A stretch of 64,000 nt of DNA, taken from the NCBI GenBank assembly GCA_026874595.1, contig CM049306.1:21871019-21935018 (forward strand). The letters are read 5' to 3'. Positions 32,751 through 64,000 of the stretch are shown piece by piece. This DNA comes from Sipunculus nudus (taxonomy: Eukaryota; Annelida; Sipuncula; Golfingiida; Sipunculidae). The position numbers and the translations under genes were made by a program. The stretch's first letter is position 1. Each line of letters opens with the position of its first letter. The notes under the pieces were generated by a model, which had not been told where the DNA came from, ran no database searches, and worked only from the letters and a program-made list of their open reading frames with translations.

Positions 32751-32754
32751 CTCG

Positions 32755-33295
32755 TCCCAGTTAACAATGTCTACAATGTCTACAGTGAATAAACATTGTC
32801 CGACGGTAGCATCACAAGCTGTAAAAATACTGATAACAATGTCTACAATGTCTACGGTGATTAACCCATGTCCTACGATAACCCAAAACTGCTATACAAT
32901 ACTGATTAACCAGGCTGGTCCCAGTTAACAATGTCTACAGTGAGCAGACATTGTCCGACGATCACCCCCAACGAGCTGTAAAATCCTGATACGAGGCGCG
33001 AACAGTTAACAATGTCTATACAATGTCTGCAGTGAGTAGACAATGTCCGACGATCATACCAACGAGCTATAAAATACTGACTGACGGGGCTGGTAACAGT
33101 TAACAATGTCTACAATGTCAGCAGTGACTATAAAGAATGTCAAACGGTCATCCCAACAAGTCATTAAATCTTGATTACGAAGCGCGTAACAGTTAACAAT
33201 GTCGACAGGTATGAACAATATCCGACGATCACTCCAACGAGCTATAAAATATTTACTGACGAGGCTCATAAGTTAACAATGTATATAATGCCTAC
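32755..33295. repeat. ~75-bp tandem repeat, about 7 degenerate copies
   Basis: Unit: CAGTTAACAATGTCTACAAT, then a CAGTGA.TA.ACA segment, TTGTCCGACGATCA, and GAGCTATAAAATACTGA. Copies start near 32757, 32838, 32926, 33003, 33098, 33189 and 33269. Minus-strand frames across it are artefacts. Confidence 0.85.
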
Positions 33296-33299
33296 AGTG

Positions 33300-35936: not shown

Positions 35937-36589
35937 CGTGGTGTGTACACATTGCATTGACGATGATAAAGGAACCAGGGGAATCCCCCCCCCCCCCCCA
36001 AAGACATTCTTGTTAATCCGAGCATTACAGACGTGTAGTTTGTTTTGCATGTATGCTCAGTTATCATATATTTATACTTAGACGCGGATAAAATAATAGA
36101 AACCATTTGCTCGACTCACTGCTGTTGTGTTGAATCAAGCTGTTCATCCTATCGGGTTAATTGACTGAGTAGCAGCGCTATGCCATAAGAGTTGAGCATT
36201 GAAGATGAAACTTTATTAATTATAAAACACATGTTTAACATCTAAACGTTTCCGAGAATAAGACAGAATGGTAAAATGCCAGACTTTGTTTAATAATTTT
36301 ATTTTGAGGCGGGACAAAGTTCAGAAGGACAAAATGAATAAAGTAATTGAACTACTTTTCGGTTGTTGCGTGTTATCACGCTTTTTTCCACCCTAGGATC
36401 TGAATTAACCAAACCATTGTTTTTTTTGTTTTTTTTTTTGCTGGATAAGTAATCAGCTCCAAAGCAGACAAAATTGAAATTTTTTTTCAAAAATTAAATA
36501 AAATGTAATAATCATGCCCAGCACTACTCGGTAAACATTTGATTAAATATGTAGTCAGCCATGTCATAAAATGAATCCCTAAGCCTTAT

Positions 36590-36845
36590 AAATTGTTACA
36601 ACATTCATCAACCTATGATTTTATTTGTTGCTTCTTAAATGGTTACATCATTCATTATTCCCAGCTTTAATTTATTTTCATTGCTTTTAAAATGGTCACA
36701 ACATTCATTATTCCATGATTTTATTTATTTTCGTTGCTTTTTAAATGGTTACAACGTTCATTATCCCATCCTTTATTTGTTTAATTGCCTTGTAAATGGT
36801 CACAACATTCATTATTCTATGATTTTATTTGTTTTCATTGCTTTT
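36590..36845. repeat. 53-bp minisatellite, left part
   Basis: Degenerate copies of a unit containing TGGTCACAACATTCATTATT and CATGATTTTATTTG, then TTTTCATTGCTTTTTAAA. The same minisatellite resumes at 43479, so the 6.6 kb between the two parts is inserted DNA. Confidence 0.85.
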
Positions 36846-36884
36846 TATATGCATGAAAGCTATACAGAAAAGCACATATAAAAA

Positions 36885-37204: not shown

Positions 37205-37359
37205 CTCCATAAGTATTCATTTAATAGGAGCCCATTTTTTATATATGTTTTTCCATCTTCCCTCTGCTTAAAGCTATACACTTTTCTATTTCATATATAT
37301 TCTCTATAAAATGTCGGATTCCCTGCTGTAGGTTTCTGTTTATAACATCTACTGACATA
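37205..37359 (-). pseudogene. Final ORF2 piece of the minus-strand LINE
   Basis: Minus-strand reading gives ENIYEIEKCIALSRGKMEKH and then IKNGLLLNEYLW, the kind of basic C-terminal helix found at the end of L1/Tx1 ORF2. Joining it to the segment ending at 39690 restores continuity (MIKRYLYVSRCYKQKP), which shows that 37360-39676 was inserted. Confidence 0.65.
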
Positions 37360-39676
37360 GAAACAAATGGGAAATGATTAAGTATTATATTAGGAAGGAA
37401 ACCATTATATTTGCAAAGAAATCTAAATATGAAACAGATCAGCATTATTATACATTAATGGAGAGATTGAAAACATTAGAAAGTGGAGGAACTAATAATG
37501 AAGAATATTTTGATATAAAAGAGAAGATAAATAATATTGAAATGAAACGAGTAGAAGGGACCATTATTAGAGCTAAAGTTAGATGGAGAGAATATGGAGA
37601 GAGAAGTACAAGATACTTCTACCAATTGGAGAAAAGAAATGGCATAAGGAAACATATTCGGAAATTAAAATAAGAATCAGGCTTTATTGTTACAAGTGAA
37701 AAAGGTATCCTGGATCATTCTAAAAAAATTTATGCTAATCTTTATAAAAGTAAGAGTACAGAATTAAATTCTTTGGAGGCTCGATATTTTTTTGATAATT
37801 CGACCATAACAAAATTGTCAACAGAAGAAAAAGAGCTATGGGAGGGACCAATAACGTTAGGAGAATGTGAAAATATAATTAAAAATTTAAAAAATAATAA
37901 GTCTCCAGGAAATGATGGATTAACTATAGAATTCTATAAATATTTTTGGAACAAAATAGGTCCTTAAGTTATTAACTCGTTTAATAAATCACTTCATTTG
38001 GGGGAAATGTCTCCCTCTCAAAAGCAGTCTGTGATAACACTTATTGATAAAAAAGGTAAAGATAGATTATTAATAAAAAACTTTCTCTTCTAAATAATGA
38101 CTATAAAATTGCATCCAAGGTTATTGCAGAAAGAATAAAGAAAATTCTACCTTCAATTATTAGTTCAGATCAACATGGTTTTATTAAAGGCAGATATATA
38201 GGGGAAGCATTGAGAACAATTTTAGACACAATAGAATATCTTAAGATAATAGATCAACAAGGGATACTTCTCAGTGTGGATTTTGAAAAAGCGTTTGATT
38301 CATTGGAATGGAATTATATGATAGAGGTTTTGAAATTATTTAATTTTGTAGAAAATTTAATATCATGGGTCAAACTTTTTTACACTAACATAAGTTCATG
38401 TATAATGAACAATGGATACTCCTCAGGTTATTTCTTAGTAGAGAGAGGTGTGCGTCAAGGGGATCCACTCTCCCCATATTTTTTTTATTATCTGTATTGA
38501 AATATTAGCAGAGAAAATACGACAGAATAATCAAATTAAAGGTATCCCTTTAAATAACCAGAATATTCTTAAATGCGTACTTTACGCAGATGACTTAACA
38601 GCTCTAATTAAAGATGAAAATTCAGCCATCAAACTCATGAAATTATTATCATCATTCTCTAAAATATCTGGTATTAAAGTAAATGAAGAAAAGTCAGAAG
38701 CAATGCAGATAGGTTCAAAACTAAATTCAAAATTTACTTCAGTTCTGAATTTTAAAGATTGTTTAAAACTGCTTGGTGTTTATATAACAAAAAATAAAAT
38801 AGATATGGATGAAAAGAATATTAAACCAAAACTCCTTGAAGTTAAACAAAATTTGTACATGTGGAGGCTCAGAGATTTGACATTGAGTGGACGAATTTTA
38901 TTATCAAAGTCACTTGGCTATTCAAAATTTCAATATATTGCTTCAGTAATCGACATACCAAAAAATTACATAAGAGAAATAGAAAGAGAGTTATTCAAAT
39001 TTATATGGAAAGGGAAAAGAAAGGGGCGGATAAAACGAAGAACTTTGATGGAAGATTATGACAATGGAGGTCAGAAGATGATAAATGTACAATGTATGAT
39101 AGATGCACAGAAAGTTATGTGGATAAAACGGTATGTGTACGGTGGGTGTAAACAATGGAAAGAAGTGGTAGATTTGATTTTTAAAAGGTATGGTGGACTG
39201 TCATTTCTCCTCCATTGTAATTATTCGGTTACCAGATTACAAAATTTGCAAACCTTTTATTTGGATTTATTGAAAGTATGGGAGGTTATACGTCTTAGAA
39301 CAAGTAGTAAAATAGTATGGAATAATAAAAAATATAATGGTAACTGGAAAACTGTATATAATCAAAATTTTTTGAAAGCAGGTTTGAGGTATATTACAGA
39401 TTTGGTGGATCAAGATAAGAAAATCATTCCCTTTTGAGAGTGGATAAAAAGAGGTTGTAAAACTAAATGGTATATACTCTGGAGAAGCATTATCTCTCAG
39501 ACCAAAACTATGATAAACCAGTTTGACACTCACATAAATATTGAAAATATGGAAAACTTAAATTATTTTGTTAAATTCTCCAGTATATAACTTTCAGAAA
39601 TAAATGCTTAATTTACTTACTCAAACCTGCTGAGGGAAATACCAATAGAAAAGAGCGCTGGAGTCAAGACACATAG
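37360..39676 (+). mobile_element. Plus-strand L1/Tx1 LINE fragment with 14-bp target duplication
   Basis: CATCTACTGACATA is present at 37346-37359 and again at 39677-39690, a perfect 14-bp duplication. The insert is 5'-truncated (starting NKWEMIKYYIRKET). Unexpectedly it also ends inside ORF2 (NTNRKERWSQDT), lacking the last ~170 codons, 3' UTR and tail. See the pseudogene entry for its coding content. Confidence 0.8.
37365..39676 (+). pseudogene. Decayed ORF2 (reverse transcriptase) of the plus-strand LINE
   Basis: Order of motifs: RVEGTIIRAKVRWREYGERS; NNKSPGNDGLTIEFYKYF; DYKIASKVIAERIKKILP; DQHGFIKGRYIGEALRT; SVDFEKAFDSLEWNYM (catalytic Asp); GVRQGDPLSPYFF; CVLYADDLTALI (catalytic YADD); GIKVNEEKSEAMQ; LLGVYITKNKID; and a thumb/connection region to YNQNFLKAGLRYITDLVD. 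Lesions: stop near 37671, stop near 37965, a deletion near 38075 removing the RPIS motif, a frameshift in a T-run near 38480, and a stop at 39436. The catalytic residues are intact but the frame is dead. Spacing is that of L1/Tx1 ORF2. Confidence 0.9.
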
Positions 39677-39690
39677 CATCTACTGACATA

Positions 39691-40507
39691 CAAGTACCGT
39701 TTTATCATCAAAGATAAAGAATTCAACCATTAATGTTCACAGCTACCAAGTAGAACTTTTTCTATGAACACTGTAAACGAAGGGTTTATTGACTTACGTA
39801 GTTTCAATACTTGCAGAATTCCATCCCATATGAGTTTCGAAAAGGTGCAGTCCCATAGTACATGTATCAAAGTTTCCTTCTTATTTTGACAAAATATGCA
39901 ATGAGCACCTTCTACAATATTGATTTTATGTAAGGATTTAAAGGATTATGAAACTGGAAACTTCTTAATCTAACAGATATAGTAGAATAACATATATTAC
40001 GAAATCCTTTGTTTATTTCATCATCAGATTCTAGCATCAGGTCTTTTTTCCATTTAAGAATACTGTTGCTTGGTCTTCTGTATATTCTTTTATTATTTTC
40101 ATATACACTTTTTAAACTGTATTTATCTTTAAAAGAAAGTTACTCAGTCAGTCTTAATATGCCCCAGTTTCAATACCAGTTTCCTCTTTTCATCTGGAAT
40201 TGATGCTAGTATACAATTTTAACTTTAAAAAATCTATATAAACTGAATATTTTTGACAGAATGTTTTGTGGCTCAACCAAAGAGACCTTTTATTCATGTG
40301 ATCATACAGATCTGAAATGTACTTAACTCCTGCATCGTAAAATGTTTTATAAAACATAACTCTATCCTCCCTTTTAATATGTGAGTTAAACCATAAACAT
40401 TGAGACATTATTTCCAGAGTTGTTGTTGGATTAAAGAAATTATATGAACACCACCCTCGATGAACATCTTCCCATAACGGGCATGGCAAGTAGATTTGTT
40501 GAGTCAT
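39691..40507 (-). pseudogene. C-terminal ORF2 segment of the minus-strand LINE
   Basis: Starts CPLWEDVHRGWCSYNFFNPT, passes FYDAGVKYISDLYDHMN and RRPSNSILKWKKDL, and reaches HCIFCQNKKETLIHVLWDCT (CxxC...HxxxxC zinc-binding pattern), then LIWDGILQVLKL. Frameshifts occur near 40195 and 39930 and a stop near 39730. It aligns in order with the C-terminal part of the plus-strand LINE at 39250-39676, so both belong to the same superfamily. It is cut at 39690 by the plus-strand LINE insertion and resumes at 37345. Confidence 0.75.
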
Positions 40508-40549
40508 CCGTTGCTAAGTTACATTTAAATGACAATTCCTTTAGCTTTA

Positions 40550-41165
40550 AATTATCTAGGATAAGTAGTCTGTGCAATTACTTTCCTAAATATTATCCGA
40601 TGTCATTCAAATTTTGGTCAGTGATTGCTGTCATGCTTACCTTGGTTTGGATTTGTTTTGAAGTGTCTGGCTTATGTCCGTCTATCTGTCACTCTGTCTG
40701 TCAATTTGTCAGGTTTTTGTTTCTGGGGGATAACTTCTCTAAATATTATCCGATTTCATTCAAATTTTGGTCAGCAATTGCTCTGATGCATACCTTGGTT
40801 GGGAATAGTTTTGGGGTGTCTGGCTTTTGTCTGTCTGTCACCGTATGTCCGTCTGTCAGGTTTTCGTTTCCCTGCTATAACTTTCCTAAATATTATCCGA
40901 TGTCATTCAAATTTTGGTCAGTGATTGCTGTCATGCTTACCTTGGTTTGGATTTGTTTGAAGTGTCTGGCTTATGTCCGTCTATCTGTCACTCTGTCTGT
41001 CAGTGTGTCAGGTTTTTGTTTCTGTGGGATAACTTCTCTAAATATTATCCGATTTCATTCAAATTTTGGTCTGTGATTGCTCTCATGCATACCCTGGTTG
41101 GGATTTGTTTTGGAGTGTCTGGCTTCTGTCTGTCTGTCTGTCACTCTGTCTGTCCGTACTTTATC
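40550..41165. repeat. ~150-bp tandem repeat, four copies as two ~300-bp dimers
   Basis: CTAAATATTATCCGATGTCA or a close variant starts at about 40586, 40739, 40886 and 41038. Copies 1 and 3 are nearly identical and copies 2 and 4 are similar, so the unit duplicated is a ~300-bp dimer. Each copy contains a (TGTC)n-like stretch. The trailing ATGAAAACCAACAAGATCTC to CTTGTTAAC (to 41228) may be the end of the same element. It lies inside the minus-strand LINE. The frames across it are artefacts. Confidence 0.8.
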
Positions 41166-41449: not shown

Positions 41450-42330
41450 TGTTACAGGTGTCTCTTTATTGTGTGCAGCAGTCTTGCATGTGTCTGTGAT
41501 GCGCCATGTAGCATTGTCCGTTGCCATGGGAGACGCGCGAGCCGGGCCGGCCCACGTGTCGGGTCTGACGTGTAGAAACACAGCGCTCATGCTTCACGGA
41601 ACTTTCTGGGCTGGTCGCGCTTTTTGAGCACGTGTCTTGTAATGTTCTTTGGGCGCGTGTGTATTATGTATTGTTGGGATCTTTGGATTTTTCGTGATAT
41701 AGAAGTTTCTAGACTTTGGGGGAGAAGCTATATATTAGGGGCTGCGTTTAGAGCCGAGGGAAGAGATAGAAATATTCCAGCGGACACGGAAGAGTGTGAG
41801 TGAGTTTGTGGACCTTTCCTTTTAATTGCAGCAGTTATAGATCTTCTTCGAAATTTGTAACGGATTTTATTTAGTCTTCAGTTTGCCTTTGGGATCACTA
41901 CCAGAACTTCACTTTTGGATTACAACAGATTGATTTTTTTATTCAATTTGACTATTATTCTCTTAGAAGATTTATGTGAACTGTTCATCTGGATTATAAG
42001 CTTTAAGGGATTATTTTGCTGTGACAGTGGTGGTATCCAGGTACTGTACACTTTATTTATTACACTGTGTATTATTGTATGTGATTGTATTGATTTGCTG
42101 TTGTACTATTGTTATACTGTGTAATTGTATTGATTTAGTGTATTGTAATGTTAGAGATGTTTCAAGAATACATTATAATTATTTGGAGACAAAAACCCAC
42201 TGACTTCTCTATTTATTCCCCTAGACATTTCATGCTGCCTTGTGCTACAGAATCTGAATTTTATTCATCTTCGTAACAAGGTTTATGCTTGTTAAGACTA
42301 CGTGTTCTGTTGTTATTAGGTTCCGTAACA
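41450..42330 (+). mobile_element. 5' LTR of a Gypsy-type retrotransposon (copy 3)
   Basis: Begins TGTTACAGGTGTCTC and ends GGTTCCGTAACA. The same ~880-bp unit, inverted, forms the solo LTRs at 16608 and 29765. A TATA-like TATATATTAGG at about 41730 lies about 30 bases before a likely transcript start. A TTTATTCCCC (near 42211) and the GACATTTCATGCTGCC box are shared with the other copies. It is followed by a primer site and gag, which fixes its orientation. Confidence 0.9.
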
Positions 42331-43478: not shown

Positions 43479-44190
43479 TGTTTTCATTGCTTTTAAAATT
43501 GTTACAACATTCATTACTCATGATTTTATTTGTTTTCATTTCTTTTTAAATGGTCACATCATTCATTATTCAATGCTTTATTTTGTTTCATTGCTTTTTA
43601 AATGGTCACATCATTTATTATTCCATGATTTTATTTGTTTGCCTTGCTTTTTAAATGGACACATCATTCATTATTCCATGATTTTATTTTTTTCTTATTG
43701 TTTTTAAAATGGTCACAACGTTTATCATCCCATCCTTTATTTGTTTTATTGCCTTGTAAATGGTCACAACATTTATTTTCCCATGATTTTATTTGTTTTT
43801 CATTGCTCTTTAAATTGTCACTACGTTCATTATCCCATTGATTTTTGTTTGTTTTCATTGCTTTTCCTAAATGTCACAACATTCACTATATAATTTTTGT
43901 TTGTTTTCATTGCTTTTTAAATGATCACAACGTTCATTATCACATGCTTTTATTTGTTTTCATTGCTTTTTAAATGGTCACAACATTCATTATATGATTT
44001 TATTTGTTTTCAATGTCTTTTAAATGGTCACAACATTCACAAAATGATTTTATTTGTTTTATTGCTTTATAAATGGTCACGGCATTCAAAACCATATGGA
44101 TTTATTTGTTTTCATTACTTTTAATGGTCAAGACATTCATAACCATATGGTTTTATTTGTTTCCTTTGCCTTTTGAATGGTCCCATAATT
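43479..44190. repeat. 53-bp minisatellite, right part (~13 copies)
   Basis: Same unit as at 36590-36845. Spacing of TGGTCACAAC varies from 49 to 57 bp. Open frames across it on both strands are artefacts of the repeat. Confidence 0.92.
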
Positions 44191-44309
44191 CAGTTAAGTC
44201 TCCTGTGGATTAGTTTGTTTTCATCGCAGGACTTTTAAATAAAGATAGTTTTTAAGTTATCTCACAGATGAAATCAATCTCACTCGTGGGTATTTTCGTT
44301 GAATTGCAG

Positions 44310-46419: not shown

Positions 46420-47780
46420 TAACATTTTACAAATCGTAACCGCTGGACCTAGAAACCTCTTACTGAATACCCATATAGGTAAAAGATCATCTTGAAACCT
46501 GAAATTAAGTGACAGCGGCCTATATTATCCGAGCTATTGTGCTCGAATTGACCCCCAGAATGATTAAACTTTGATATAAAAGCTCAAGTTTCTGAATAAC
46601 TAATACATTGAAACATATGCATGTATATTGATAATGGAGTGTTTCATCAGTTCCCGCAACCGGTGATGCCACCTGTATTTTTATTTTTTTTTTTTTTTTA
46701 TTTTTACAATATTTGAACTTGGTCTGTTAACAGAGCACAAATCATAACCGTTGGACTTGGAATCATTTAACTTGACATCAAGGGAGGTCCATAAGAAATT
46801 TCATTGAAGAGCTGAAATGAGGTCTCCGTTACCCGTACCCTTCGAGTTATGGGGCCCGAAAATACCTCACAGATTAATTAAATTTAATACAAAAGCTCTA
46901 GTATTTGTATAACTAATGCATTGTTCGTCATGATTCTTTGCATGCATATTAATCATGGAGTGTTTCATCAGTTCCAGCAGACTGGTGGCGCGATCTGGAT
47001 TTTTTCGAATGTTTACATATGTTTTCTCTATTTTGGAGAACTACCGTTTCTTTGCAAAACCGCTTCCCAAGCCGGTATTATAGTTTCTCGGAGGTACAAT
47101 TCGAATAGGTTGGAATATTATGATGAGCCGTCACAAAATTAGCGGGGGAATTATTTGGTGACCAACTGGTGGGAAGAATAAACAGCCGAGGACGATAAAT
47201 AATAATAAAATTGAGTTAATTCCAGGACTTACAGTAAGTTTTTGACCACTCTTTGGCTGCTCCATAGCAGTCAATTAGGCCTAGACCTATCGTATTCATT
47301 TCAGGTTCGGCAAAACGTTTAACGCTCGTCAAAATCGCTTTTCAGTCCACAGCCTCGCTTCCGCATCAACGTCGTGCTGACGTTTTCCTTTCCATGCATA
47401 TTGATCATGGAGTGTTTCATCAGGTCCTGCAGAGTGGTGGTACCACCTGTATTTTTTTCTCTTTTTTTTTGAGACCTTTAAATGAAGTGGTCTGGCTGTT
47501 AATAGGGCACAAACCTTAACCATAAGACCTAGTAATTTCTAACTTTACACCCCGGAAGGTGCCAGACATATCGCCCTGGAAACCCGTAATTAGGTCATGG
47601 TGACCTATATTTTGAGTATTAGGGGAGAAAACATGACTTCTAAGCACTCAGTCAGTCCGAAGGGGCACAAATTATATCAATTTGGCATGGCATCCTCATA
47701 CATGATTTTCAGGGAGGTCCATAAATAATCTCCTTGGAAACCTGAAATGATGTTCCTGTGACATATTTTTTTTGCAAGCT
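46420..47780. repeat. Degenerate direct repeats containing TGGAGTGTTTCATCAG
   Basis: TGGAGTGTTTCATCAG occurs near 46635, 46957 and 47407. Each copy is followed by a T-rich run or 'GTGG' segment and preceded or followed by ACAAATCATAACCGTTGGAC-like sequence and an 'AGGTCCATAA' block. Three to four degenerate units with irregular spacing (322-450 bp). Confidence 0.6.
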
Positions 47781-48217
47781 GTGTGAAAGAACATGATTTT
47801 ATTACTCTGTTAGTCATGTGTGCACAAATGGCAGCAGCTCGATGTAGAATAAGATCACTGTATTCTCTATCTTAGATCTAATGGCAAATTGCATGATTTT
47901 GACCACTCTGGCAGTCATTTTCCCATTGTTCAAGGCTCATCGAATTCAGCTGAGCGTCATGGCCCATGGGATACTTGTTGAGATTTGTGCTTCCATGGCG
48001 GAGGCATATATCCATTCGAATGCGCATTCTAGTTGTTGCTTTGTTTCACAATGTCTCGGCTTATACATGCGGTGCAGGTATAAAATGTCTTTAGGCTTGG
48101 TTTCTACTACATAACAGAGAATAACACCCGAATTAATACTCTATCGGAAAATAAGACGAAAGCCTGACTAGAAAGAAGAATCAGCACATCAAGAAAGATC
48201 CTTGGAATAGCACGTTA

Positions 48218-48223
48218 TTTATT
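48218..48223 (-). promoter_or_regulatory. Poly(A) signal AATAAA for the minus-strand terminal exon
   Basis: AATAAA on the minus strand, about 130 bases downstream of the stop codon of the 48354-48606 exon. The position is typical of a short 3' UTR. No stronger alternative signal is seen nearer the stop. Confidence 0.5.
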
Positions 48224-48353
48224 CTTTGTCATTTCATAATAATACAGAGTCCATGAGTCTGTGAAGGGGAGGAGTAATGCGTTTTGTCATCCGACATAAA
48301 AAGAACATGGAGTTTAACAAACAACATCATAATTTAATAAACCTTCATCGACT

Positions 48354-48606
48354 CTAAGAGAGGAATTTCGAAAGCGAACAGGGTACATCCATCTTCTTCG
48401 TTAGAGTAAGCCCTGTCTTCATTTTTAAAGCCTTGTGTGGTCTCGGCTGTGATGGAACACGAGGGATGTTGCATTTGAAGCGCTCTAATATGTTTTGTCC
48501 GCGCCAAGGTGCGAGGTCCTTAGGCTGCTTTGGTTCAGGTGCCGTTGGTTCCTTGTAGGATAAGATTATTCGGTCAAAGGTCATGGAAGGGAAAAGATTC
48601 TGTGCT
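48354..48606 (-). CDS. 3'-terminal exon of an unrecognised gene
   Basis: On the minus strand a pyrimidine-rich acceptor (ATATTTTTTCTACCCACCAG) leads into an open frame of 83 codons ending in a stop. Parts read FDRIILSYKEPTAPEPKQPK, APWRGQNILERFKCNIPR and KALKMKTGLTLTKKMDVPC. The segment is proline- and lysine-rich with balanced codon use, unlike the neighbouring repeats. A canonical AATAAA on the same strand (plus-strand 48218-48223) lies about 130 bases after the stop, as expected of a last exon. The exon is entered with one base completing a split codon. The satellite array begins only about 45 bases upstream of the acceptor, so the previous intron would contain it. I do not recognise the family. 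No transmembrane segment or signal peptide is visible. Confidence 0.55.
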
Positions 48607-48649
48607 CTGGTGGGTAGAAAAAATATTTGCCTCGGTTCCAGTCTGCTTG

Positions 48650-51600
48650 CTTTCAAACACTTAAAAAACATGTTTTATTTATAACGAGAACTAAATTTGA
48701 ATGGTTTAACATGGAGGTATGGAGGGTTTCGTCGAAATTATTCAGGTTTGTCAAACACATTCAGGGATAAGGTAGGAGCGCGTCAGTAAAGACAGTGTCT
48801 GCTTATTCTCAAACACTTAAAAACATGTTTTATTTATAACGAGACCTAAAATTGAATGGTTTAACATGGAGGTATGGAGGGTTTCGTCGAAATTATACAT
48901 GTTAGTCAAACACATTCAGGGATAAGGTAGGAGGGCGTCAGTAAAGACAGTGTCTGCTTATTTTGAAACACTTAAAAACATGTTTTATTTACAACGAGAC
49001 CTTAAATTGAATGGTTTAACATGGAGGTATGGAGGGTTTCGTCGAAATTATACATGTTTGTTAAACACATTCAGGGAAAAGGTAGGAGCGCGTCAGTAAA
49101 GACAGTGTCTGCTTATTCACAAACACTTAAAAACATGTTTTATTTATAACGAGACCTAAAATTGAATGTTTTAACATGGAGGTATGGAGGGTTTCGTCGA
49201 AATTATACATGTTAGTCAAACACATTCAGGGATAAGGTAGGAGGGCGTCAGTAAAGACAGTGTGTGCTTATTCTGAAACACTTAAAAACATGTTAAATTT
49301 ACAACGAGACCTAAAATTGAATGATTTAACATGGAGGTATGGAGGGTTTCGTCGAAATTATACATGTTAGTCAAACACATTCAGGGATATGGTAGGAGGG
49401 CGTCAGTAAAGACAGTGTCTGCTTATTCTGAAACACTTAAAAACATGTTTTATTTACAACGAGACCTAAAATTGAATGGTTTAACATGGAGGTATGGAGG
49501 GTTTCGTCGAAATTATATATGTTTGTTAAACACATTCAGGGATAAGGTAGGAGCGCGTCAGTAAAGACAGTGTCTGCTTATTCACAAACACTTAAAACAT
49601 GTTTTATTTATAACAAGACCTAAAATTGAATGTTTTTACATGGAGGTATGGAGGGTTTCGTCGAAATTATACATGCTTGTCAAACACATTCAGGGATAAG
49701 GTAGGAGGGCGTCAGTAAAGACAGTGTCCGCTTATTCTGAAACACTTAAAAACATGTTTAATTTACAACGAGACCTAAAATTGAATGGTTTAACATTGAG
49801 GTATGGAGGGTTTCGTCGAAATTATACATGTTTGTTAAACACATTCAGGGATAAGGTAGGAGCGCGTCAGCAAAGACAGTGTCTGCTTATTCACAAACAC
49901 TTAAAAACATGTTTTATTTATAACGAGACCTAAAATTGAATGTTTTTACATGGAGGTATGGAGGGTTTCGTCGAAATTATACATGCTTGTTAAACACATT
50001 CAGGGATAAGGTAGGAGGGTGTCAGTAAAGACAGTGTCTGCTTATTCTGAAACACTAAAACACATGTTTTATTTATAACGAGACCTAAAATTGAATGGTT
50101 TAACATGGAGGTATGGAGGGTTTCGTCGAAATTATACATGTTTGTCAAACACATTAAGGGATAAGGTAGGAGCGCGTCAGTAAAGACAGTGTCTGCTTAT
50201 TCTGAAACACTTAAACACATGTTTTATTTATAACGAGACCTAAAATTGAATGGTTTAACCTGGAGCTATGGAGGGTTTCGTCGAAATTATACATGTTTGT
50301 TAAACACATTCAGGGACAAGGTAGGTGCGCGTCAGTAAAGACAGTTTCTACTTATTCTGAAACACTTAAAAAAATGTTTTATTTATAACGAGACTATAAA
50401 TTGAATGGTTTAACATGGAGGTATGGAGGGTTTCGTCGAAATTATACATGTTTGTTAAACACATTCAGGGATAAGGTAGGAGCGCGTCAGTAAAGACAGT
50501 GTCTGCTTATTCTGAAACACTTAAAACAATGTTTTATTTATAACGAGACCTAAAATTGAATGTTTTAACATGGAGGTATGGAGGGTTTCGTCGAAATTAT
50601 ACATGTTTGTTAAACACATTCAGGGATAAGGTAGGAGCGCGTCAGTAAAGACAGTGTCTGCTTATTCTCAAACACTTAAAAAAAATGTTTTATTTATTAT
50701 GAGACCTAAAATTGAATGGTTTAACATTGAGGAATGGAGGGTTTCGTCGAAATTATACATGTTTCTTAAACACATTCAGGGATAAGGTAGGAGCGCGTCA
50801 GTAAAGACAGTGTCTACTTATTCTGAAAACTTGAAAACATGTTTTATTTTTAACGAGACCTAAAATTGAATGGTTTAACATGGAGGTATGAAGGGTTTCG
50901 TCGAAATTATACATGTTTGTTAAACACATTCAGGGATAAGGTAGGAGCGCGTCAGTAAAGACAGATTCTGCTTATTCTGAAACACTTAAAAACATGTTTT
51001 ATTTATAACGAGACTATAAATTGAATGGTTTAACATGGAGGTATGGAGGGTTTCGTCGAAATTATACATGTTTGTTAAACACATTCAGGGATAAGGTAGG
51101 AGCGCGTCAGTAAAGACAGTGTCTGCTTATTCTGAAACACTTAAAAACATGTTTTATTTATAACGAGACCTAAAATTGAATGTTTTAACATGGAGGTATG
51201 GAGGGTTTCGTCGAAATTATACATGTTTCTTAAACACATTCAGGGATAAGGTAGAAGCGCGTCAGTAAAGACAGTGTCTACTTATTCTGAAACACTTAAA
51301 AACATGTTTTATTTTTAACGAGACCTAAAAATGAATGGTTTAACATGGAGGTATGAAGGGTTTCGTCGAAATTATACATGTTTGTTAAACACATTCAGGG
51401 ATAAGGTCCGAGCGCGTCAGTAAAGACAGTGTCTGCTTATTCTGAAACACTTAAAAACATGTTTTATTTATAACGAGACTTAAAATTGAATGGTTTAACA
51501 TGGAGGTATGGAGGGTTTCGTCGAAATTATACATGTTTGTCAAACACATTCAGGGATAAGGTTGGAGCGCGTCAGTAAAGAAAGTGTCTGCTTATTCTCA

Positions 51601-54600
51601 AACACTTAAAAACATGTTTTATTTATAACGAGACCTAAAATTGAATGGTTTAACATGGAGGTATGGAGGGTTTCGTCGAAATTATGCATGTTTGTCAAAC
51701 ACATTCAGGGATAAGGTAGGAGCGCGTCAGTAAAGACAGTGTCTGCTTATTCTGAAACACTTAAAAACATGTGTTATTTATAACGAGACCTCAATTGAAT
51801 GGTTTAACATGGAGATATGGAGGGTTTCGTCGAAATTATACATGTTTGTTAAACACATTCAGGGATAAGGTAGGAGCGCGTCAGTAAAGACAGTGTCTGC
51901 TTATTCACAAACACTTAAAAACATGTTTTATTTATAACGAGACTATAAATTGAATGGTTTAACATGGAGGTATGGAGGGTTTCGTCGAAATTATACATGT
52001 TTGTTAGACACATTCAGGGATAAGGTAGGAGCGCGTCAGTAAAGACAGTGTCTGCTTATTCTGAAACACTTAAATCATGTTTTATTTATAACGAGACCTA
52101 AAATTGAATGGTTTAACATGGAGGAATGGAGGGTTTCGTCGAAATTATACGTGTTTGTTAAACACATTCAGGGATAAGGTAGGAGCGCGTCAGTAAAGAC
52201 AGTGTCTGCTAATTCTCAAACACTTAAAAACATGTTTTATTTATAAGGAGACCTTAAATTGAATGTTTTAACATGGAGGTATGGAGGGTTTCGTCGAAAT
52301 TATACATGTTTCTTAAACACATTCAGGGATAAGGTAGGAGCGCGTCAGTAAAGACAGTGTCTGCTTATTCTCAAACACTTAAAAAAAATGTTTTATTTAT
52401 TATGAGACCTAAAATTGAATGGTTTAACATTGAGGAATGGAGGGTTTCGTCGAAATTATACATGTTTCATAAACACATTCAGGGATAAGGTAGGAGCGCG
52501 TCAGTAAAGACAGTGTCTACTTATTCTGAAAACTTGAAAACATGTTTTATTTTTAACGAGACCTAAAATTGAATGGTTTAACATGGAGGTATGAAGGGTT
52601 TCGTCGAAATTATACATGTTTGTTAAACACATTCAGGGATAAGGTAGGAGCGCGTCAGTAAAGACAGATTCTGCTTATTCTGAAACACTTAAAAACATGT
52701 TTTATTTATAACGAGACTATAAATTGAATGGTTTAACATGGAGGTATGGAGGGTTTCGTCGAAATTATACATGTTTGTTAAACACATTCAGGGATAAGGT
52801 AGGAGCGCGTCAGTAAAGACAGTGTCTGCTTATTCTGAAACACTTAAAAACATGTTTTATTTATAACGAGACCTAAAATTGAATGTTTTAACATGGAGGT
52901 ATGGAGGGTTTCGTCGAAATTATACATGTTTCTTAAACACATTCAGGGATAAGGTAGAAGCGCGTCAGTAAAGACAGTGTCTACTTATTCTGAAACACTT
53001 AAAAACATGTTTTATTTTTAACGAGACCTAAAAATGAATGGTTTAACATGGAGGTATGAAGGGTTTCGTCGAAATTATACATGTTTGTTAAACACATTCA
53101 GGGATAAGGTCCGAGCGCGTCAGTAAAGACAGTGTCTGCTTATTCTGAAACACTTAAAAACATGTTTTATTTATAACGAGACTTAAAATTGAATGGTTTA
53201 ACATGGAGGTATGGAGGGTTTCGTCGAAATTATACATGTTTGTCAAACACATTCAGGGATAAGGTTGGAGCGCGTCAGTAAAGAAAGTGTCTGCTTATTC
53301 TCAAACACTTAAAAACATGTTTTATTTATAACGAGACCTAAAATTGAATGGTTTAACATGGAGGTATGGAGGGTTTCGTCGAAATTATGCATGTTTGTCA
53401 AACACATTCAGGGATAAGGTAGGAGCGCGTCAGTAAAGACAGTGTCTGCTTATTCTGAAACACTTAAAAACATGTGTTATTTATAACGAGACCTCAAATT
53501 GAATGGTTTAACATGGAGATATGGAGGGTTTCGTCGAAATTATACATGTTTGTTAAACACATTCAGGGATAAGGTAGGAGCGCGTCAGTAAAGACAGTGT
53601 CTGCTTATTCACAAACACTTAAAAACATGTTTTATTTATAACGAGACTATAAATTGAATGGTTTAACATGGAGGTATGGAGGGTTTCGTCGAAATTATAC
53701 ATGTTTGTTAGACACATTCAGGGATAAGGTAGGAGCGCGTCAGTAAAGACAGTGTCTGCTTATTCTGAAACACTTAAATCATGTTTTATTTATAACGAGA
53801 CCTAAAATTGAATGGTTTAACATGGAGGAATGGAGGGTTTCGTCGAAATTATACGTGTTTGTTAAACACATTCAGGGATAAGGTAGGAGCGCGTCAGTAA
53901 AGACAGTGTCTGCTAATTCTCAAACACTTAAAAACATGTTTTATTTATAAGGAGACCTTAAATTGAATGTTTTAACATGGAGGTATGGAGGGTTTCGTCG
54001 AAATTATACATGTTTCTTAAACACATTCAGGGATAAGGTAGGAGCGCGTCAGTAAAGACGTGTCTGTTTATTCTCAAACACTTAAAAACATGTTTTATTT
54101 ATAACGAGACTTAAAACTGAATGGTTTAACATGGAGCTATGGAGGGTTTCGTCGAAATTATACATGTTTGTTAAATACATTCAGGAATAAGGTAGGAGCG
54201 CGTCAGTAAAGACAGTGTCTGCTTATTCTGAAACACTTAAACACATGTTTTATTTATAACGAGACCTAAAATTGAATGGTTTAACCTGGAGCTATGGAGG
54301 GTTTCGTCGAAATTATACATGTTTGTTAAACACATTCAGGGACAAGGTAGGTGCGCGTCAGTAAAGACAGTTTCTACTTATTCTGAAACACTTAAAAAAA
54401 TGTTTTATTTATAACGAGACTATAAATTGAATGGTTTAACATGGAGGTATGGAGGGTTTCGTCGAAATTATACATGTTTGTTAAAAACATTCAGGGATAA
54501 GGTAGGAGCGCGTCAGTAAAGACAGTGTCTGCTTATTCTGAAACACTTAAAAACATGTTTTATTTATAACGAGACCTAAAATTGAATGTTTTAACATGGA

Positions 54601-57600
54601 GGTATGGAGGGTTTCGTCGAAATTATACATGTTTGTTTAACACATTCAGGGATAAGGTAGGAGCGCGTCAGTAAAGACAGTGTCTGCTTATTCTCAAACA
54701 CTTAAAAAAAATGTTTTATTTATTATGAGACCTAAAATTGAATGGTTTAACATTGAGGAATGGAGGGTTTCGTCGAAATTATACATGTTTCTTAAACACA
54801 TTCAGGGATAAGGTAGGAGCGCGTCAGTAAAGACAGTGTCTACTTATTCTGAAAACTTGAAAACATGTTTTATTTTTAACGAGACCTAAAATTGAATGGT
54901 TTAACATGGAGGTATGAAGGGTTTCGTCGAAATTATACATGTTTGTTAAACACATTCAGGGATAAGGTAGGAGCGCGTCAGTAAAGACAGATTCTGCTTA
55001 TTCTGAAACACTTAAAAACATGTTTTATTTATAACGAGACTATAAATTGAATGGTTTAACATGGAGGTATGGAGGGTTTCGTCGAAATTATACATGTTTG
55101 TTAAACACATTCAGGGATAAGGTAGGAGCGCGTCAGTAAAGACAGTGTCTGCTTATTCTGAAACACTTAAAAACATGTTTTATTTATAACGAGACCTAAA
55201 ATTGAATGTTTTAACATGGAGGTATGGAGGGTTTCGTCGAAATTATACATGTTTCTTAAACACATTCAGGGATAAGGTAGAAGCGCGTCAGTAAAGACAG
55301 TGTCTACTTATTCTGAAACACTTAAAAAAATGTTTTATTTATAACGAGACTATAAATTGAATGGTTTAACATGGAGGTATGGAGGGTTTCGTCGAAATTA
55401 TACATGTTTGTTAAAAACATTCAGGGATAAGGTAGGAGCGCGTCAGTAAAGACAGTGTCTGCTTATTCTGAAACACTTAAAAACATGTTTTATTTATAAC
55501 GAGACCTAAAATTGAATGTTTTAACATGGAGGTATGGAGGGTTTCGTCGAAATTATACATGTTTGTTTAACACATTCAGGGATAAGGTAGGAGCGCGTCA
55601 GTAAAGACAGTGTCTGCTTATTCTCAAACACTTAAAAAAAATGTTTTATTTATTATGAGACCTAAAATTGAATGGTTTAACATTGAGGAATGGAGGGTTT
55701 CGTCGAAATTATACATGTTTCTTAAACACATTCAGGGATAAGGTAGGAGCGCGTCAGTAAAGACAGTGTCTACTTATTCTGAAACACTTAAACACATGTT
55801 TTATTTATAACGAGACCTAAAATTGAATGGTTTAACCTGGAGCTATGGAGGGTTTCGTCGAAATTATACATGTTTGTTAAACACATTCAGGGACAAGGTA
55901 GGTACGCGTCAGTAAAGACAGTTTCTGCTTATTCTGAAAGACTTAAAAACATGTTTTGTTTATAACGAGACTATAAATTGAATGGTTTAACATGGAGGTA
56001 TGGAGGGTTTCGTCGAAATTATACATGTTTGTTAAACACATTCAGGGATAAGGTCCGAGCGCGTCAGTAAAGACAGTGTCTGCTTATTCTGAAACACTTA
56101 AAAACATGTTTTATTTATAACGAGACCTAAAATTGAATGTTTTAACATGGAGGTATGGAGGGTTTCGTCGAAATTATACATGTTTCTTAAACACATTCAG
56201 GGATAAGGTAGAAGCGCGTCAGTAAAGACAGTGTCTACTTATTCTGAAACACTTAAAAACATGTTTTATTTTTAACGAGACCTAAAAATGAATGGTTTAA
56301 CATGGAGGTATGAAGGGTTTCGTCGAAATTATACATGTTTGTTAAACACATTCAGGGATAAGGTCCGAGCGCGTCAGTAAAGACAGTGTCTGCTTATTCT
56401 GAAACACTTAAAAACATGTTTTATTTATAACGAGACTTAAAATTGAATGGTTTAACATGGAGGTATGGAGGGTTTCGTCGATATTATACATGTTTGTTAA
56501 ACACATTTAGGAATAAGGTAGGAGCGCGTCAGTTAAGACAGTGTCTGCTTATTCTCAAACACTTAAAAACATGTTTTATTTATAACGAGACCTAAAATTG
56601 AATGGTTTAACATGGAGGTATGGAGGGTTTCGTCGAAATTATACATGTTTGTTACACACATTCAGGGGTAAGGTAGGATCGCGTCAGTAAAGACAGTGTC
56701 TGCTTATTCTCAAACACTTAAAAACATGTTTTATTTATAACGCGACCTAAAATTGAATGGTTTAACATGGAGGTATGGAGGGTTTCGTCGAAATTATACA
56801 TGTTTGTCAAACACATTCAGGGATAAGGTTGGAGCGCGTCAGTAAAGAAAGTGTCTGCTTTTTCTCAAACACTTAAAAACATGTTTTATTTATAACGAGA
56901 CCTAAAATTGAATGGTTTAACATGGAGGTATGGAGGGTTTCGTCGAAATTATGCATGTTTGTCAAACACATTCAGGGATAAGGTAGGAGCGCGTCAGTAA
57001 AGACAGTGTCTGCTTATTCTGAAACACTTAAAAACATGTGTTATTTATAACGAGACCTCAAATTGAATGGTTTAACATGGAGATATGGAGGGTTTCGTCG
57101 AAATTATACATGTTTGTTAAACACATTCAGGGATAAGGTAGGAGCGCGTCAGTAAAGACAGTGTCTGCTTATTCACAAACACTTAAAAACATGTTTTATT
57201 TATAACGAGACTATAAATTGAATGGTTTAACATGGAGGTATGGAGGGTTTCGTCGAAATTATACATGTTTGTTAGACACATTCAGGGATAAGGTAGGAGC
57301 GCGTCAGTAAAGACAGTGTCTGCTTATTCTGAAACACTTAAATCATGTTTTATTTATAACGAGACCTAAAATTGAATGGTTTAACATGGAGGAATGGAGG
57401 GTTTCGTCGAAATTATACGTGTTTGTTAAACACATTCAGGGATAAGGTAGGAGCGCGTCAGTAAAGACAGTGTCTGCTAATTCTCAAACACTTAAAAACA
57501 TGTTTTATTTATAAGGAGACCTTAAATTGAATGTTTTAACATGGAGGTATGGAGGGTTTCGTCGAAATGATACATGTTTCTTAAACACATTCAGGGATAA

Positions 57601-60600
57601 GGTAGGAGCGCGTCAGTAAAGACAGTGTCTGTTTATTCTCAAACACTTAAAAACATGTTTTATTTATAACGAGACTTAAAACTGAATGGTTTAACATGGA
57701 GCTATGGAGGGTTTCGTCGAAATTATGCATGTTTGTCAAACACATTCAGGGATAAGGTAGGAGCGCGTCAGTAAAGACAGTGTCTGCTTATTCTGAAACA
57801 CTTAAAAACATGTGTTATTTATAACGAGACCTCAAATTGAATGGTTTAACATGGAGATATGGAGGGTTTCGTCGAAATTATACATGTTTGTTAAACACAT
57901 TCAGGGATAAGGTAGGAGCGCGTCAGTAAAGACAGTGTCTGCTTATTCACAAACACTTAAAAACATGTTTTATTTATAACGAGACTATAAATTGAATGGT
58001 TTAACATGGAGGTATGGAGGGTTTCGTCGAAATTATACATGTTTGTTAGACACATTCAGGGATAAGGTAGGAGCGCGTCAGTAAAGACAGTGTCTGCTTA
58101 TTCTGAAACACTTAAATCATGTTTTATTTATAACGAGACCTAAAATTGAATGGTTTAACATGGAGGAATGGAGGGTTTCGTCGAAATTATACGTGTTTGT
58201 TAAACACATTCAGGGATAAGGTAGGAGCGCGTCAGTAAAGACAGTGTCTGCTAATTCTCAAACACTTAAAAACATGTTTTATTTATAAGGAGACCTTAAA
58301 TTGAATGTTTTAACATGGAGGTATGGAGGGTTTCGTCGAAATTATACATGTTTCTTAAACACATTCAGGGATAAGGTAGGAGCGCGTCAGTAAAGACAGT
58401 GTCTGTTTATTCTCAAACACTTAAAAACATGTTTTATTTATAACGAGACTTAAAATTGAATGGTTTAACATGGAGCTATGGAGGGTTTCGTCGAAATTAT
58501 ACATGTTTGTTAAATATATTCAGGAATAAGGTAGGAGCGCGTCAGTAAAGACAGTGTCTGCTTATTCTGAAACACTTAAACACATGTTTTATTTATAACG
58601 AGACCTAAAATTGAATGGTTTAACCTGGAGCTATGGAGGGTTTCGTCGAAATTATACATGTTTGTTAAACACATTTAGGGACAAGGTAGGTGCGCGTCAG
58701 TAAAGACAGTTTCTACTTATTCTGAAACACTTAAAAAAATGTTTTATTTATAACGAGACTATAAATTGAATGGTTTAACATGGAGGTATGGAGGGTTTCG
58801 TCGAAATTATACATGTTTGTTAAACACATTCAGGGATAAGGTAGGAGCGCGTCAGTAAAGACAGTGTCTGCTTATTCTGAAACACTTAAAAACATGTTTT
58901 ATTTATAACGAGACCTAAAATTGAATGTTTTAACATGGAGGTATGGAGGGTTTCGTCGAAATTATACATGTTTGTTAAACACATTCAGGGATAAGGTAGG
59001 AGCGCGTCAGTAAAGACAGTGTCTGCTTATTCTCAAACACTTAAAAAAAATGTTTTATTTATTATGAGACCTAAAATTGAATGGTTTAACATTGAGGAAT
59101 GGAGGGTTTCGTCGAAATTATACATGTTTCTTAAACACATTCAGGGATAAGGTAGGAGCGCGTCAGTAAAGACAGTGTCTACTTATTCTGAAAACTTGAA
59201 AACATGTTTTATTTTTAACGAGACCTAAAATTGAATGGTTTAACATGGAGGTATGAAGGGTTTCGTCGAAATTATACATGTTTGTTAAACACATTCAGGG
59301 ATAAGGTAGGAGCGCGTCAGTAAAGACAGATTCTGCTTATTCTGAAACACTTAAAAACATGTTTTATTTATAACGAGACTATAAATTGAATGGTTTAACA
59401 TGGAGGTATGGAGGGTTTCGTCGAAATTATACATGTTTGTTAAACACATTCAGGGATAAGGTAGGAGCGCGTCAGTAAAGACAGTGTCTGCTTATTCTGA
59501 AACACTTAAAAACATGTTTTATTTATAACGAGACCTAAAATTGAATGTTTTAACATGGAGGTATGGAGGGTTTCGTCGAAATTATACATGTTTCTTAAAC
59601 ACATTCAGCGATAAGGTAGGAGCGCGTCAGTAAAGACAGTGTCTACTTATTCTGAAACACTTAAAAACATGTTTTATTTTTAACGAGACCTAAAAATGAA
59701 TGGTTTAACATGGAGGTATGAAGGGTTTCGTCGAAATTATACATGTTTGTTAAACACATTCAGGGATAAGGTCCGAGCGCGTCAGTAAAGACAGTGTCTG
59801 CTTATTCTGAAACACTTAAAAACATGTTTTATTTATAACGAGACTTAAAATTGAATGGTTTAACATGGAGGTATGGAGAGTTTCGTCGAAATTATACATG
59901 TTTGTTAAACACATTTAGGAATAAGGTAGGAGCGCGTCAGTTAAGACAGTGTCTGCTTATTCTCAAACACTTAAAAACATGTTTTATTTATAACGAGACC
60001 TAAAATTGAATGGTTTAACATGGAGGTATGGAGGGTTTCGTTGAAATTATACATGTTTGTTACACACATTCAGGGGTAAGGTAGGATCGCGTCAGTAAAG
60101 ACAGTGTCTGCTTATTCTCAAACACTTAAAAACATGTTTTATTTATAACGCGACCTAAAATTGAATGGTTTAACATGGAGGTATGGAGGGTTTCGTCGAA
60201 ATTATACATGTTTGTCAAACACATTCAGGGATAAGGTTGGAGCGCGTCAGTAAAGAAAGTGTCTGCTTATTCTCAAACACTTAAAAACATGTTTTATTTA
60301 TAACGAGACCTAAAATTGAATGGTTTAACATGGAGGTATGGAGGGTTTCGTCGAAATTATGCATGTTTGTCAAACACATTCAGGGATAAGGTAGGAGCGC
60401 GTCAGTAAAGACAGTGTCTGCTTATTCTGAAACACTTAAAAACATATGTTATTTATAACGAGACCTCAAATTGAATGGTTTAACATGGAGATATGGAGGG
60501 TTTCGTCGAAATTATACATGTTTGTTAAACACATTCAGGGATAAGGTAGGAGCGCGTCAGTAAAGACAGTGTCTGCTTATTCACAAACACTTAAAAACAT

Positions 60601-63600
60601 GTTTTATTTATAACGAGACTATAAATTGAATGGTTTAACATGGAGGTATGGAGGCTTTCGTCGAAATTATACATGTATGTTAGACACATTCAGGGATAAG
60701 GTAGGAGCGCGTCAGTAAAGACAGTGTCTGTTTATTCTGAAACACTTAAATCATGTTTTATTTATAACGAGACCTAAAATTGAATGGTTTAACATGGAGG
60801 AATGGAGGGTTTCGTCGAAATTATACGTGTTTGTCAAACACATTCAGGGATAAGGTAGGAGCGCGTCACTAAAGACAGTGTCTGCTAATTCTCAAACACT
60901 TAAAAACATGTTTTATTTGTAAGGAGACCTTAAATTGAATGTTTTAACATGGAGGTATGGAGGGTTTCGTCGAAATTATACATGTTTCTTAAACACATTC
61001 AGGGATAAGGTAGGAGCGCGTCAGTAAAGACAGTGTCTGTTTATTCTCAAACACTTAAAAACATGTTTTATTTATAACGAGACTTAAAATTGAATGGTTT
61101 AACATGGAGGTATGGAGGGTTTCGTCGAAATTATACATGTTTGTTAAATACATTCAGGAATAAGGTAGGAGCGCGTCAGTAAAGACAGTGTCTGCTTATT
61201 GTAAAACACTTAAAAGCATGTTTTATTTATAACGAGACTTAAAATTGAATGGTTTAACATGGAGCTATGGAGGGTTTCGTCGAAATTATACATGTTTGTT
61301 AAACACATTCAGGAATAAGGTAGGAGCGCGTCAGTAAAGACAGTGTCTGCTTATTCTCAAACACTTAAAAGCATGTTTTATTTATAACGAGACCTAAAAT
61401 TGAATGGTTTAACATGGAGGTATGGAGGGTTTCGTCGAAATTATACATGTTTGTTAAACACATTCAGAGATAAGGTAGGAGCGCGTCAGTAAAGACAGTG
61501 TCTGCTTATTCACAAACACCTAAAAACATGTTTTATTTATAACGAGACCTAAAATTGAATGGTTTAACATGGAGATATGGAGGGTTTCGTCGAAATTATA
61601 CATGTTTGTTAAACACATTCAGGGATAAGGTAGGAGCGCGTCAGTACAGACAGTGTCTGCTTATTTTGAAACACTTAAACACATGTTTTATTTATAACGA
61701 GACCTAAAATTGAATGGTTTAACCTGGAGCTATGGAGGGTTTCGTCGAAATTATACATGTTTGTTAAACACATTCAGGGACAAGGTAGGTACGCGTCAGT
61801 AAAGACAGTTTCTGCTTATTCTGAAAGACTTAAAAACATGTTTTGTTTATAACGAGACTATAAATTGAATGGTTTAACATGGAGGTATGGAGGGTTTCGT
61901 CGAAATTATACATGTTTGTTAAACACATTCAGGGATAAGGTAGGAGCGCGTCAGTAAAGAAAGTGTCTGCTTATTCTGAAACACTTAAAAACATGTTTTA
62001 TTTATAACGAGACCTAAAATTGAATGTTTTAACATGGAGGTATGGAGGGTTTCGTCGAAATTATACATGTTTGTTAAACACATTCAGGGATAAGGTAGGA
62101 GCGCGTCAGTAAAGACAGTGTCTGCTTATTCTCAAACACTTAAAAAAAATGTTTTATTTATTATGAGACCTAAAATTGAATGGTTTAACATTGAGGAATG
62201 GAGGGTCACGTCGAAATTATACATGTTTGTTAAACACATTCAGGGATAAGGTAGGAGCGCGTCAGTAAAGACAGATTCTGCTTATTCTGAAACACTTAAA
62301 AACATGTTTTATTTATAACGAGACTATAAATTGAATGGTTTAACATGGAGGTATGGAGAGTTTCGTCGAAATTATACATGTTTGTTAAACACATTCAGGG
62401 ATAAGGTAGGAGCGCGTCAGTAAAGACAGTGTCTGCTTATTCTGAAACACTTAAAAACATGTTTTATTTATAACGAGACCTAAAATTGAATGTTTTAACA
62501 TGGAGGTATGGAGGGTTTCGTCGAAATTATACATGTTTCTTAAACACATTCAGGGATAAGGTAGGAGCGCGTCAGTAAAGACAGTGTCTACTTATTCTGA
62601 AACACTTAAAAACATGTTTTATTTTTAACGAGACCTAAAAATGAATGGTTTAACATGGAGGTATGAAGGGTTTCGTCGAAATTATACATGTTTGTTAAAC
62701 ACATTCAGGGATAAGGTCCGAGCGCGTCAGTAAAGACAGTGTCTGCTTATTCTGAAACACTTAAAAACATGTTTTATTTATAACAAGACTTAAAATTGAA
62801 TGGTTTAACATGGAGGTATGGAGGGTTTCGTCGAAATTATACATGTTTGTTAAACACATTCAGGAATAAGGTAGTAGCGCGTCAGTAAAGACAGTGTCTG
62901 CTTATTCTCAAACACTTAAAAACATGTTTTATTTATAACGAGACCTAAAATTTGAATGGTTTAACATGGAGGTATGGAGGGTTTCGTCGAAATTATACAT
63001 GTTTCTTAAACACATTCAGGGATAAGGTAGGAGCGCGTCAGTAAAGACAGTGTCTGTTTATTCTCAAACACTTAAAAACATGTTTTATTTATAACGAGAC
63101 TTAAAATTGAATGGTTTAACATGGAGCTAGGGAGGGTTTCGTCGAAATTATACATGTTTGTTAAATACATTCAGGAATAAGGTAGGAGCGCGTCAGTAAA
63201 GACAGTGTCTGCTTATTGTAAAACACTTAAAAGCATGTTTTATTTATAACGAGACTTAAAATTGAATGGTTTAACATGGAGCTATGGAGGGTTTCGTCGA
63301 AATTATACATGTTTGTTAAACACATTCAGGAATAAGGTAGGAGCGCGTCAGTAAAGACAGTGTCTGCTTATTCTCAAACACTTAAAAGCATGTTTTATTT
63401 ATAACGAGACCTAAAATTGAATGGTTTAACATGGAGGTATGAGGGTTTCGTCGAAATTATACATGTTTGTTAAACACATTCAGAGATAAGGTAGGAGCGC
63501 GTCAGTAAAGACAGTGTCTGCTTATTCACAAACACCTAAAAACATGTTTTATTTATAACGAGACCTAAAATTGAATGGTTTAACATGGAGATATGGAGGG

Positions 63601-64000
63601 TTTCGTCGAAATTATACATGTTTGTTAAACACATTCAGGGATAAGGTAGGAGCGCGTCAGTAAAGACAATTTCTGCTTATTCTCAAACACTTAAAAACAT
63701 GTTTTATTTATAACGAGACCTAAAATTGAACATGGAAGTATGGAGGGTTTCGTCGAAATTATACATGTTTGTTACACACATTCAGGGATAAGGTAGGAGC
63801 GCGTCAGTAAAGACAGTGTCTGCTTATTATCAAACACTAAAAATATGTTTTATTTATAACGAGACCTAAAATTGAATGATTTAACATGGAGGTACGGAGG
63901 GTTTCGTCGAAATTATACATGTTTGTTAAACACATTCAGGGATAAGGTAGGAGCGCGTCAGTAAAGACAGTGTCTGCTTATTCTCAAACACTTAAAAACA
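48650..64000. repeat. 155-bp satellite DNA, ~99 tandem copies, continues past the window
   Basis: GGGTTTCGTCGAAATTATAC recurs every 155 bases (48726, 48881, 49036, 49191, 49346 and onward to the window end). The monomer contains the palindromes AAAACATGTTTT and TTTCGTCGAAA and the block GGAGCGCGTCAGTAAAGACA. Copies are head to tail and closely alike, with diagnostic variants that recur at multiples of 155. The first ~1.3 kb alternates GGAGCGCG and GGAGGGCG forms, i.e. a dimer pattern. Deeper copies form blocks of about 11 or more monomers. 155 is not a multiple of three, so open frames across it have no coding meaning. Confidence 0.98.

Follow-up and report, generated by a model that had tools for sequence, protein, structure and literature searches.

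In the Willard-type higher-order repeats (HORs) of alpha satellite, the monomers of a unit are 20-40% apart, each monomer type occurs once per unit and the copies of the unit usually differ by less than 5% (PMC11157248). The same source describes a 'cascading' 17mer HOR on human chromosome 3, in which ordered blocks of near-nucleosome-length monomers occur as canonical copies together with deletion and duplication variants, and in which a monomer type is reused. Among invertebrates, satellites of Meloidogyne form HOR arrays whose monomers contain boxes of low variability, and the junctions lie in these conserved boxes (PMC3694981). In addition, bivalves carry tandem arrays of satellites with monomers of 156-166 bp, namely BIV160, Cg170/HindIII and the CvA core (PMC5139131, PMC7492417, PMC5874043). 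Here we describe a 155-bp satellite in a window of 64,000 bp from Sipunculus nudus (contig CM049306.1). The array is a real, well-preserved satellite with low-divergence HOR organisation, and it is ordinary in kind.

The satellite array and its surroundings

Tandem Repeats Finder reported a single array at 48641-64000 (forward strand), with a period of 155 bp and 99.2 copies, and wrap-around alignment to the iterated consensus resolved it into 99 full monomers and a 29-bp partial monomer at the window end, past which the array continues. An earlier note on this DNA had described about 99 uninterrupted monomers at 48650-64000; the number and the period hold, and the start is now placed at 48641. 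Most of the full monomers are 155 bp long (n = 76), the others being 154 bp (n = 14), 156 bp (n = 8) or 147 bp (n = 1), and the biggest irregularity of the array is found in the monomer at 63671, which is shortened by 8 bp. Identity of the 99 full monomers to the consensus averages 96.8% (range 92.3-99.4%), and no foreign insertion was found from 48641 to the window end. A long head-to-tail array of similar monomers such as this one is satellite DNA. No stop-to-stop frame of at least 120 aa lies within the array, and neither Rfam at the gathering threshold nor a tRNA scan (ARAGORN, bacterial code) gave a match across the window.

Searches for relatives of the satellite were negative within their scope. 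Elsewhere in the window, the monomer has only chance-level matches (best E 0.78). Exact strings of 23 and 21 bases gave no match in viral and prokaryotic DNA collections, which may lack entries from the genome of the window itself or from very close ones, and six monomer stretches of 13-15 bases, compared on both strands with paper texts, led to no satellite relative. In monomer length and tandem arrangement, the array resembles the bivalve satellites named above. Two published BIV160 primers, to which the sequence comparison with this satellite was confined, match the monomer at 14/25 and 12/21 positions, no better than shuffles.

The array might also represent the tandem-repeat core of a mobile element of Helitron/Helentron type, like those of oysters, expanded in place. 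Such elements do hold satellite-like repeats, with up to about 90 monomers in C. gigas (PMC10048060), and the published marks of the left flank of Helentrons are a subterminal inverted repeat and, 10-500 bp ahead of the first repeat unit, a microsatellite-like segment (PMC7492417). However, when these marks were sought to the left of the array, the site of the right-flank palindrome being beyond the window, no microsatellite with a unit of 3-8 bases scored in 48140-48640, and two very short ones (CAGT x3.2 and TGGCA x2.2) lie about 950-1000 bp from the array. Nor does 47641-48640 contain a perfect hairpin with arms of 8-12 bp and a loop of 1-12 bases, although published arms can be 7 bp long or imperfect. 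We therefore regard a Helitron or Helentron origin as unlikely.

The rest of the window contains parts of a gene, retroelements and further repeats. Exons of an LRP-family receptor gene lie at 1932-6951 on the forward strand, with Ldl_recept_b matches above the cut-off at 5557-5766 and 6020-6262 and below the cut-off at 6748-6951, EGF-like matches below the cut-off at 1932-2342, and a frame at 3344-3586 that matches LRP2, LRP4 and LRP6 in PDB. A non-LTR-type retroelement at 22231-24977 on the reverse strand has a 664-aa open frame with an RVT_1 match (22231-24225), and the frame upstream of it reads like an endonuclease domain and has no Pfam match. The second reverse-transcriptase region, at 37356-39437 on the forward strand, matches RVT_1 in two frames at 38066-39437, with a frame change near 38.45-38.50 kb, and is followed in opposite orientation by 39736-40513 (reverse strand) with a zf-RVT match below the cut-off. 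One 52-53-bp tandem repeat forms two arrays (36583-36851 and 43479-44227) that are 71-87% alike and about 6.6 kb apart, and a dispersed repeat of roughly 0.7 kb is present in three copies that are 74-79% alike, at 16601-17369, 29758-30491 and, inverted, 41654-42330. Moreover, there is a degenerate tandem array with a period of 72-92 bp at 32711-33303 (ACAATGTCTGCAGTG...), and the region 40569-41157 holds about two copies of a 299-bp unit (94%), within which an offset of 153 bp gives 82%. The match of this 299-bp unit to the satellite is at chance level (E 9.5). Receptor exons, retroelements and tandem repeats of this kind are indicative of an animal genome.

Monomer types and higher-order organisation

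Two monomers diverge by 5.7% on average; the figure for adjacent ones is 5.8%, so that they resemble each other no more than distant ones do. As monomer types we used single-linkage clusters with at most two positions different, which gave 37 clusters, of which 20 contain two or more monomers; with a 5% cut, single, average and complete linkage yield 3, 13 and 20 types, respectively. All 12 marker strings listed in the earlier note are present in the array. TTATTATGAG is present six times, and so is the form with a long A-run, which lies at 50675, 52378, 54701, 55631, 59040 and 62139, 1-3 bases from the positions given before and with the spacings of 11, 15, 6, 22 and 20 monomers exactly as claimed.

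Starting with the eleventh monomer, the types follow a recurrent order, which reads BCDEFCDGHIJKLM, EFCDGHIJKLMN and BCDEFCDCDEB.DG in segments 1-3 and OPQIJKLM.JKLMN, BCDEFCDGOPQIJK.MN and RSTB.D.CDG..NRST.. in segments 4-6, where a dot denotes a unique monomer and the segment breaks were placed by us. Labelled neighbours in this region make 73 transitions, 69 of which belong to kinds that occur two or more times; each of the other four (ME, DC, EB and TB) occurs once. The order leads us to infer a parent unit, 15-17 monomers in length, that reads B-C-D-E-F-C-D-G-(H or O-P-Q)-I-J-K-L-M-N and is varied by deletions, duplications and the fusion of monomers. The fifth segment is the fullest unit, with 17 monomers including one unclassed, and the first two segments point to a 15-monomer form in which H replaces O-P-Q. 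Types C and D are used twice per unit.

Allowing at most three differences per monomer pair, we found 22 overlapping ordered runs of at least three monomers, the longest of 12 and all of them adding up to 120 monomers, whereas in 500 random monomer orders the longest run was at most 4 and the monomers in runs at most 9. The ordered repetition of blocks is far beyond chance. Offsets of 11 monomers (1.70 kb) and 22 monomers (3.41 kb) are both present, as expected from the off-diagonals at about 1.7 and 3.4 kb that had been predicted; the longest run is at lag 28, and lags 54, 45 and 26 gave runs of 7-8 monomers. The 11-monomer block E-F-C-D-G-H-I-J-K-L-M at 50656-52358 is directly abutted by a second copy at 52359-54061 (both forward strand), the two being 99.8% identical with one substitution and two one-base indels in 1704 columns, which bears out the claim that 50676-52379 and 52379-54050 match. 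Also on the forward strand, a 12-monomer block at 53444-55301 recurs at 57782-59640 (lag 28 monomers, 99.6%), and a 10-monomer block at 56078-57626 recurs at 59486-61034 (lag 22 monomers, 99.1%) with 14 substitutions in 1549 columns, so that the repeat spacing of about 3.41 kb reported earlier is real.

The very small number of changes between the adjacent blocks at 50656-52358 and 52359-54061 is also what would be seen if the higher-order pattern were partly an artefact of assembly. However, the other three of the four aligned block pairs have 5, 8 and 14 differences, one of which is an indel, and the blocks recur in differing contexts, unlike the outcome of one mis-join. Because the block copies carry private substitutions, a wholesale duplication in the assembly is argued against, and an artefact in part of the pattern seems improbable to us, the adjacent 11-monomer pair being where one might yet lie.

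Copies within the 22 runs differ by 0.16-1.51%, the upper bound being set by the search threshold, and the monomers within one unit (indices 64-80) are 5.8% apart on average (1.3-9.0%). The array thus consists of ordered units whose copies are far closer to each other than are the monomers within a unit (0.16-1.5% versus 5.8%), which is HOR organisation, and the ordered runs and aligned blocks support the reading in the earlier note of a homogenising satellite with multi-level higher-order repeats. Assignment to the Willard type of alpha-satellite HOR was rejected: the copies do lie within the 5% described for that type (PMC11157248), but the within-unit range of 1.3-9.0% is outside 20-40%, and C and D occur twice in the unit. 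The array is closer to the 'cascading' 17mer HOR in that ordered blocks of near-nucleosome-length monomers occur as canonical copies with deletion and duplication variants and that monomer types, here C and D, are reused. This likeness is one of organisation, with about six partial unit copies here, and the array differs from alpha satellite in its average within-unit divergence of 5.8% as opposed to 20-40%.

Probable exchange between monomers, and homogenisation

Two monomers on the forward strand are fusions of different types with neighbours that fit both parents: the monomer at 57627-57781 is of type N on the left and type I on the right, with its breakpoint in columns 76-100, and that at 62741-62895 is of type H/O on the left and type R on the right, with its breakpoint in columns 76-110. 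A third, at 55923-56077 (forward strand), is a possible mosaic, in which a second parent explains three more differences and the neighbours back the left parent only. Across the array, a second parent gains at least three differences in 3/99 monomers and at least two in 16/99. In a control with column order shuffled 100 times, gains of at least three were seen in a mean of 1.0 monomers and 6/100 shuffles reached 3; this strict count alone is not clearly beyond the control. For gains of at least two, the control had a mean of 7.4 and at most 12 monomers, and none of the 100 shuffles reached 16. Therefore, mosaicism overall exceeds the control.

A template-copying model placed 24 switches, or 34 with a lower switch cost, at scattered phases. 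The three mosaic intervals overlap columns 82-100, where the monomer varies least (for example at 58947-58965, forward strand), and we considered an exchange hot spot there. Of 21 sub-monomer exchange intervals, 9 include the midpoint of these columns (null mean 7.4, P 0.29), and the hot spot was rejected. Since enrichment at columns 82-100 is not significant, the exchange points are scattered, in contrast to the junctions described for Meloidogyne (PMC3694981).

The first 10 monomers (48641-50190, forward strand) form a less homogenised zone with a loose alternation of two types. On average, the nearest monomer is 4.3 differences away in these 10, 0.55 away in the 71 that follow and 2.5 away in the final 18. 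Among the eight edge monomers starting at 48797-49881, the mean distance is 7.2 differences at lag 2 and 10.3 at lag 1 (P 0.044), in the direction of the two-monomer alternation proposed before, but lag 3 is as low (7.0), and the alternation is therefore no more than loosely suggested. Array ends are known to decay, with exceptions (PMC5139131), and the less homogenised left edge agrees with this.

We consider it very probable that the array arose by the repeated copying of an ordered 15-17-monomer unit through unequal exchange, or through conversion or break-induced replication. The unit would have been copied again and again, several monomers at each step, when sister chromatids or homologues were misaligned. 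Such multi-monomer exchange would homogenise the interior and leave the edge more diverse, and the structure of the array would need no sequence-specific function. The earlier note had read the organisation as that of a centromeric or heterochromatic satellite, and a structural role in heterochromatin or the centromere is possible.

Neutral simulations of closed arrays of 99 monomers, with tandem duplication and deletion of segments, came near the real divergence and the real longest run. At settings near the real divergence, however, ordered runs were more extensive, with about 180-640 monomers versus 120. The real array has no near-identical neighbours at lag 1 (0/98) or lag 2 (0/97), whereas their absence at both lags was seen in 0/420 simulated replicates (21 settings of 20), and minimum lengths of 3, 5 or 10 monomers still left near-identical neighbours. 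When the real monomers were put in random order (5000 shuffles), 12% of the orders lacked such neighbours at lag 1 and 1.3% lacked them at both lags. The missing near-identical neighbours hint at exchanges of several monomers at once, within the limits that the small closed model sets to such a conclusion, and the misfit of the simulations may come from their closed 99-monomer arrays.

Conserved features of the monomer and the centromere question

Columns 82-100 are identical in 92/99 full monomers, and their sequence has no other occurrence on the forward strand of the window. They are the longest series of consecutive columns in which no more than two monomers are changed (P 0.031, column shuffling, post hoc) and have 7 distinct variants versus 15.1 expected. 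This stretch, which resembles the low-variability boxes of Meloidogyne satellites, is borderline unusual and could reflect selection on the sequence. There is no sign of general constraint on the monomer, because its 61 invariant columns are below the Poisson expectation of 70.

An 8-bp inverted repeat flanks columns 82-100 on both sides, and one two-monomer stretch folds better than 100/100 shuffles (z -3.8), as would be expected if the monomer acted via a conserved dyad or hairpin, either as a DNA cruciform or as RNA. The outer six pairs of the dyad (57-62 with 117-122) are intact in 97-99 of 99 monomers. However, uncompensated breaks are frequent in the inner arm, with T-C at 63/115 in 19/99 monomers, A-C at 67/111 in 15/99 and C-C at 69/109 in 17/99. 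The fold is suggestive, but a functional hairpin was rejected in view of these changes, and we hold a role via such a structure to be very unlikely.

CpG observed/expected is 1.11 in the array versus 0.78 in the rest of the window, and 20/990 cells are changed in CpG columns versus 464/14355 in other columns. The monomer has five CpGs, four of which are intact in 94-99 of 99 monomers and the other in 86; at the CpG of column 44, TG or CA is found in 8/99 monomers. The ratio of 1.11 and the few changed CpG cells rule against a general decay of CpG.

Copying of an ordered unit by exchange is compatible with a location in a centromere or pericentromere, in which case the HOR pattern would reflect centromere-specific homogenisation. 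The near-nucleosome length of the monomer, the open-ended tandem array of more than 15 kb and its HOR organisation all fit such a location, and repeats near 155 bp are known from centromeres, such as rice CentO (155 bp) and maize CenC (156 bp) (PMC4107277). On the other hand, the edge of the array is about 42 kb from the LRP-like exons, with retroelements between, a distance that neither shows nor excludes a centromere, and no CENP-B-like motif stands above chance. The best match to the CENP-B core in the consensus is 6/9, a value reached by 81% of 500 shuffles, and individual monomers have 6/9 (93/99) or 7/9 (6/99); the best match to the 17-mer is 10/17, reached by 55% of shuffles. These matches are at chance level, and a CENP-B box was accordingly rejected, which is a further difference from alpha satellite. 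A likeness of 10/17 is within the range termed box-like in Meloidogyne (PMC3694981) and by that yardstick alone would pass, but here it is no better than chance. Taken with both sides of this evidence, a centromeric or pericentromeric location is a tentative reading that we find plausible rather than probable.

A more specific form of it, in which the array would be a young invertebrate centromeric HOR, homogenised by several monomers at a time and with a conserved 19-bp box binding an unknown centromere protein unrelated to CENP-B, appears unlikely. Were the array centromeric, early-stage HOR formation would be extended to another lineage. The array preserves variant and fused monomers and its edge in a readable order, from which the steps in the origin of a low-divergence HOR can be read directly.
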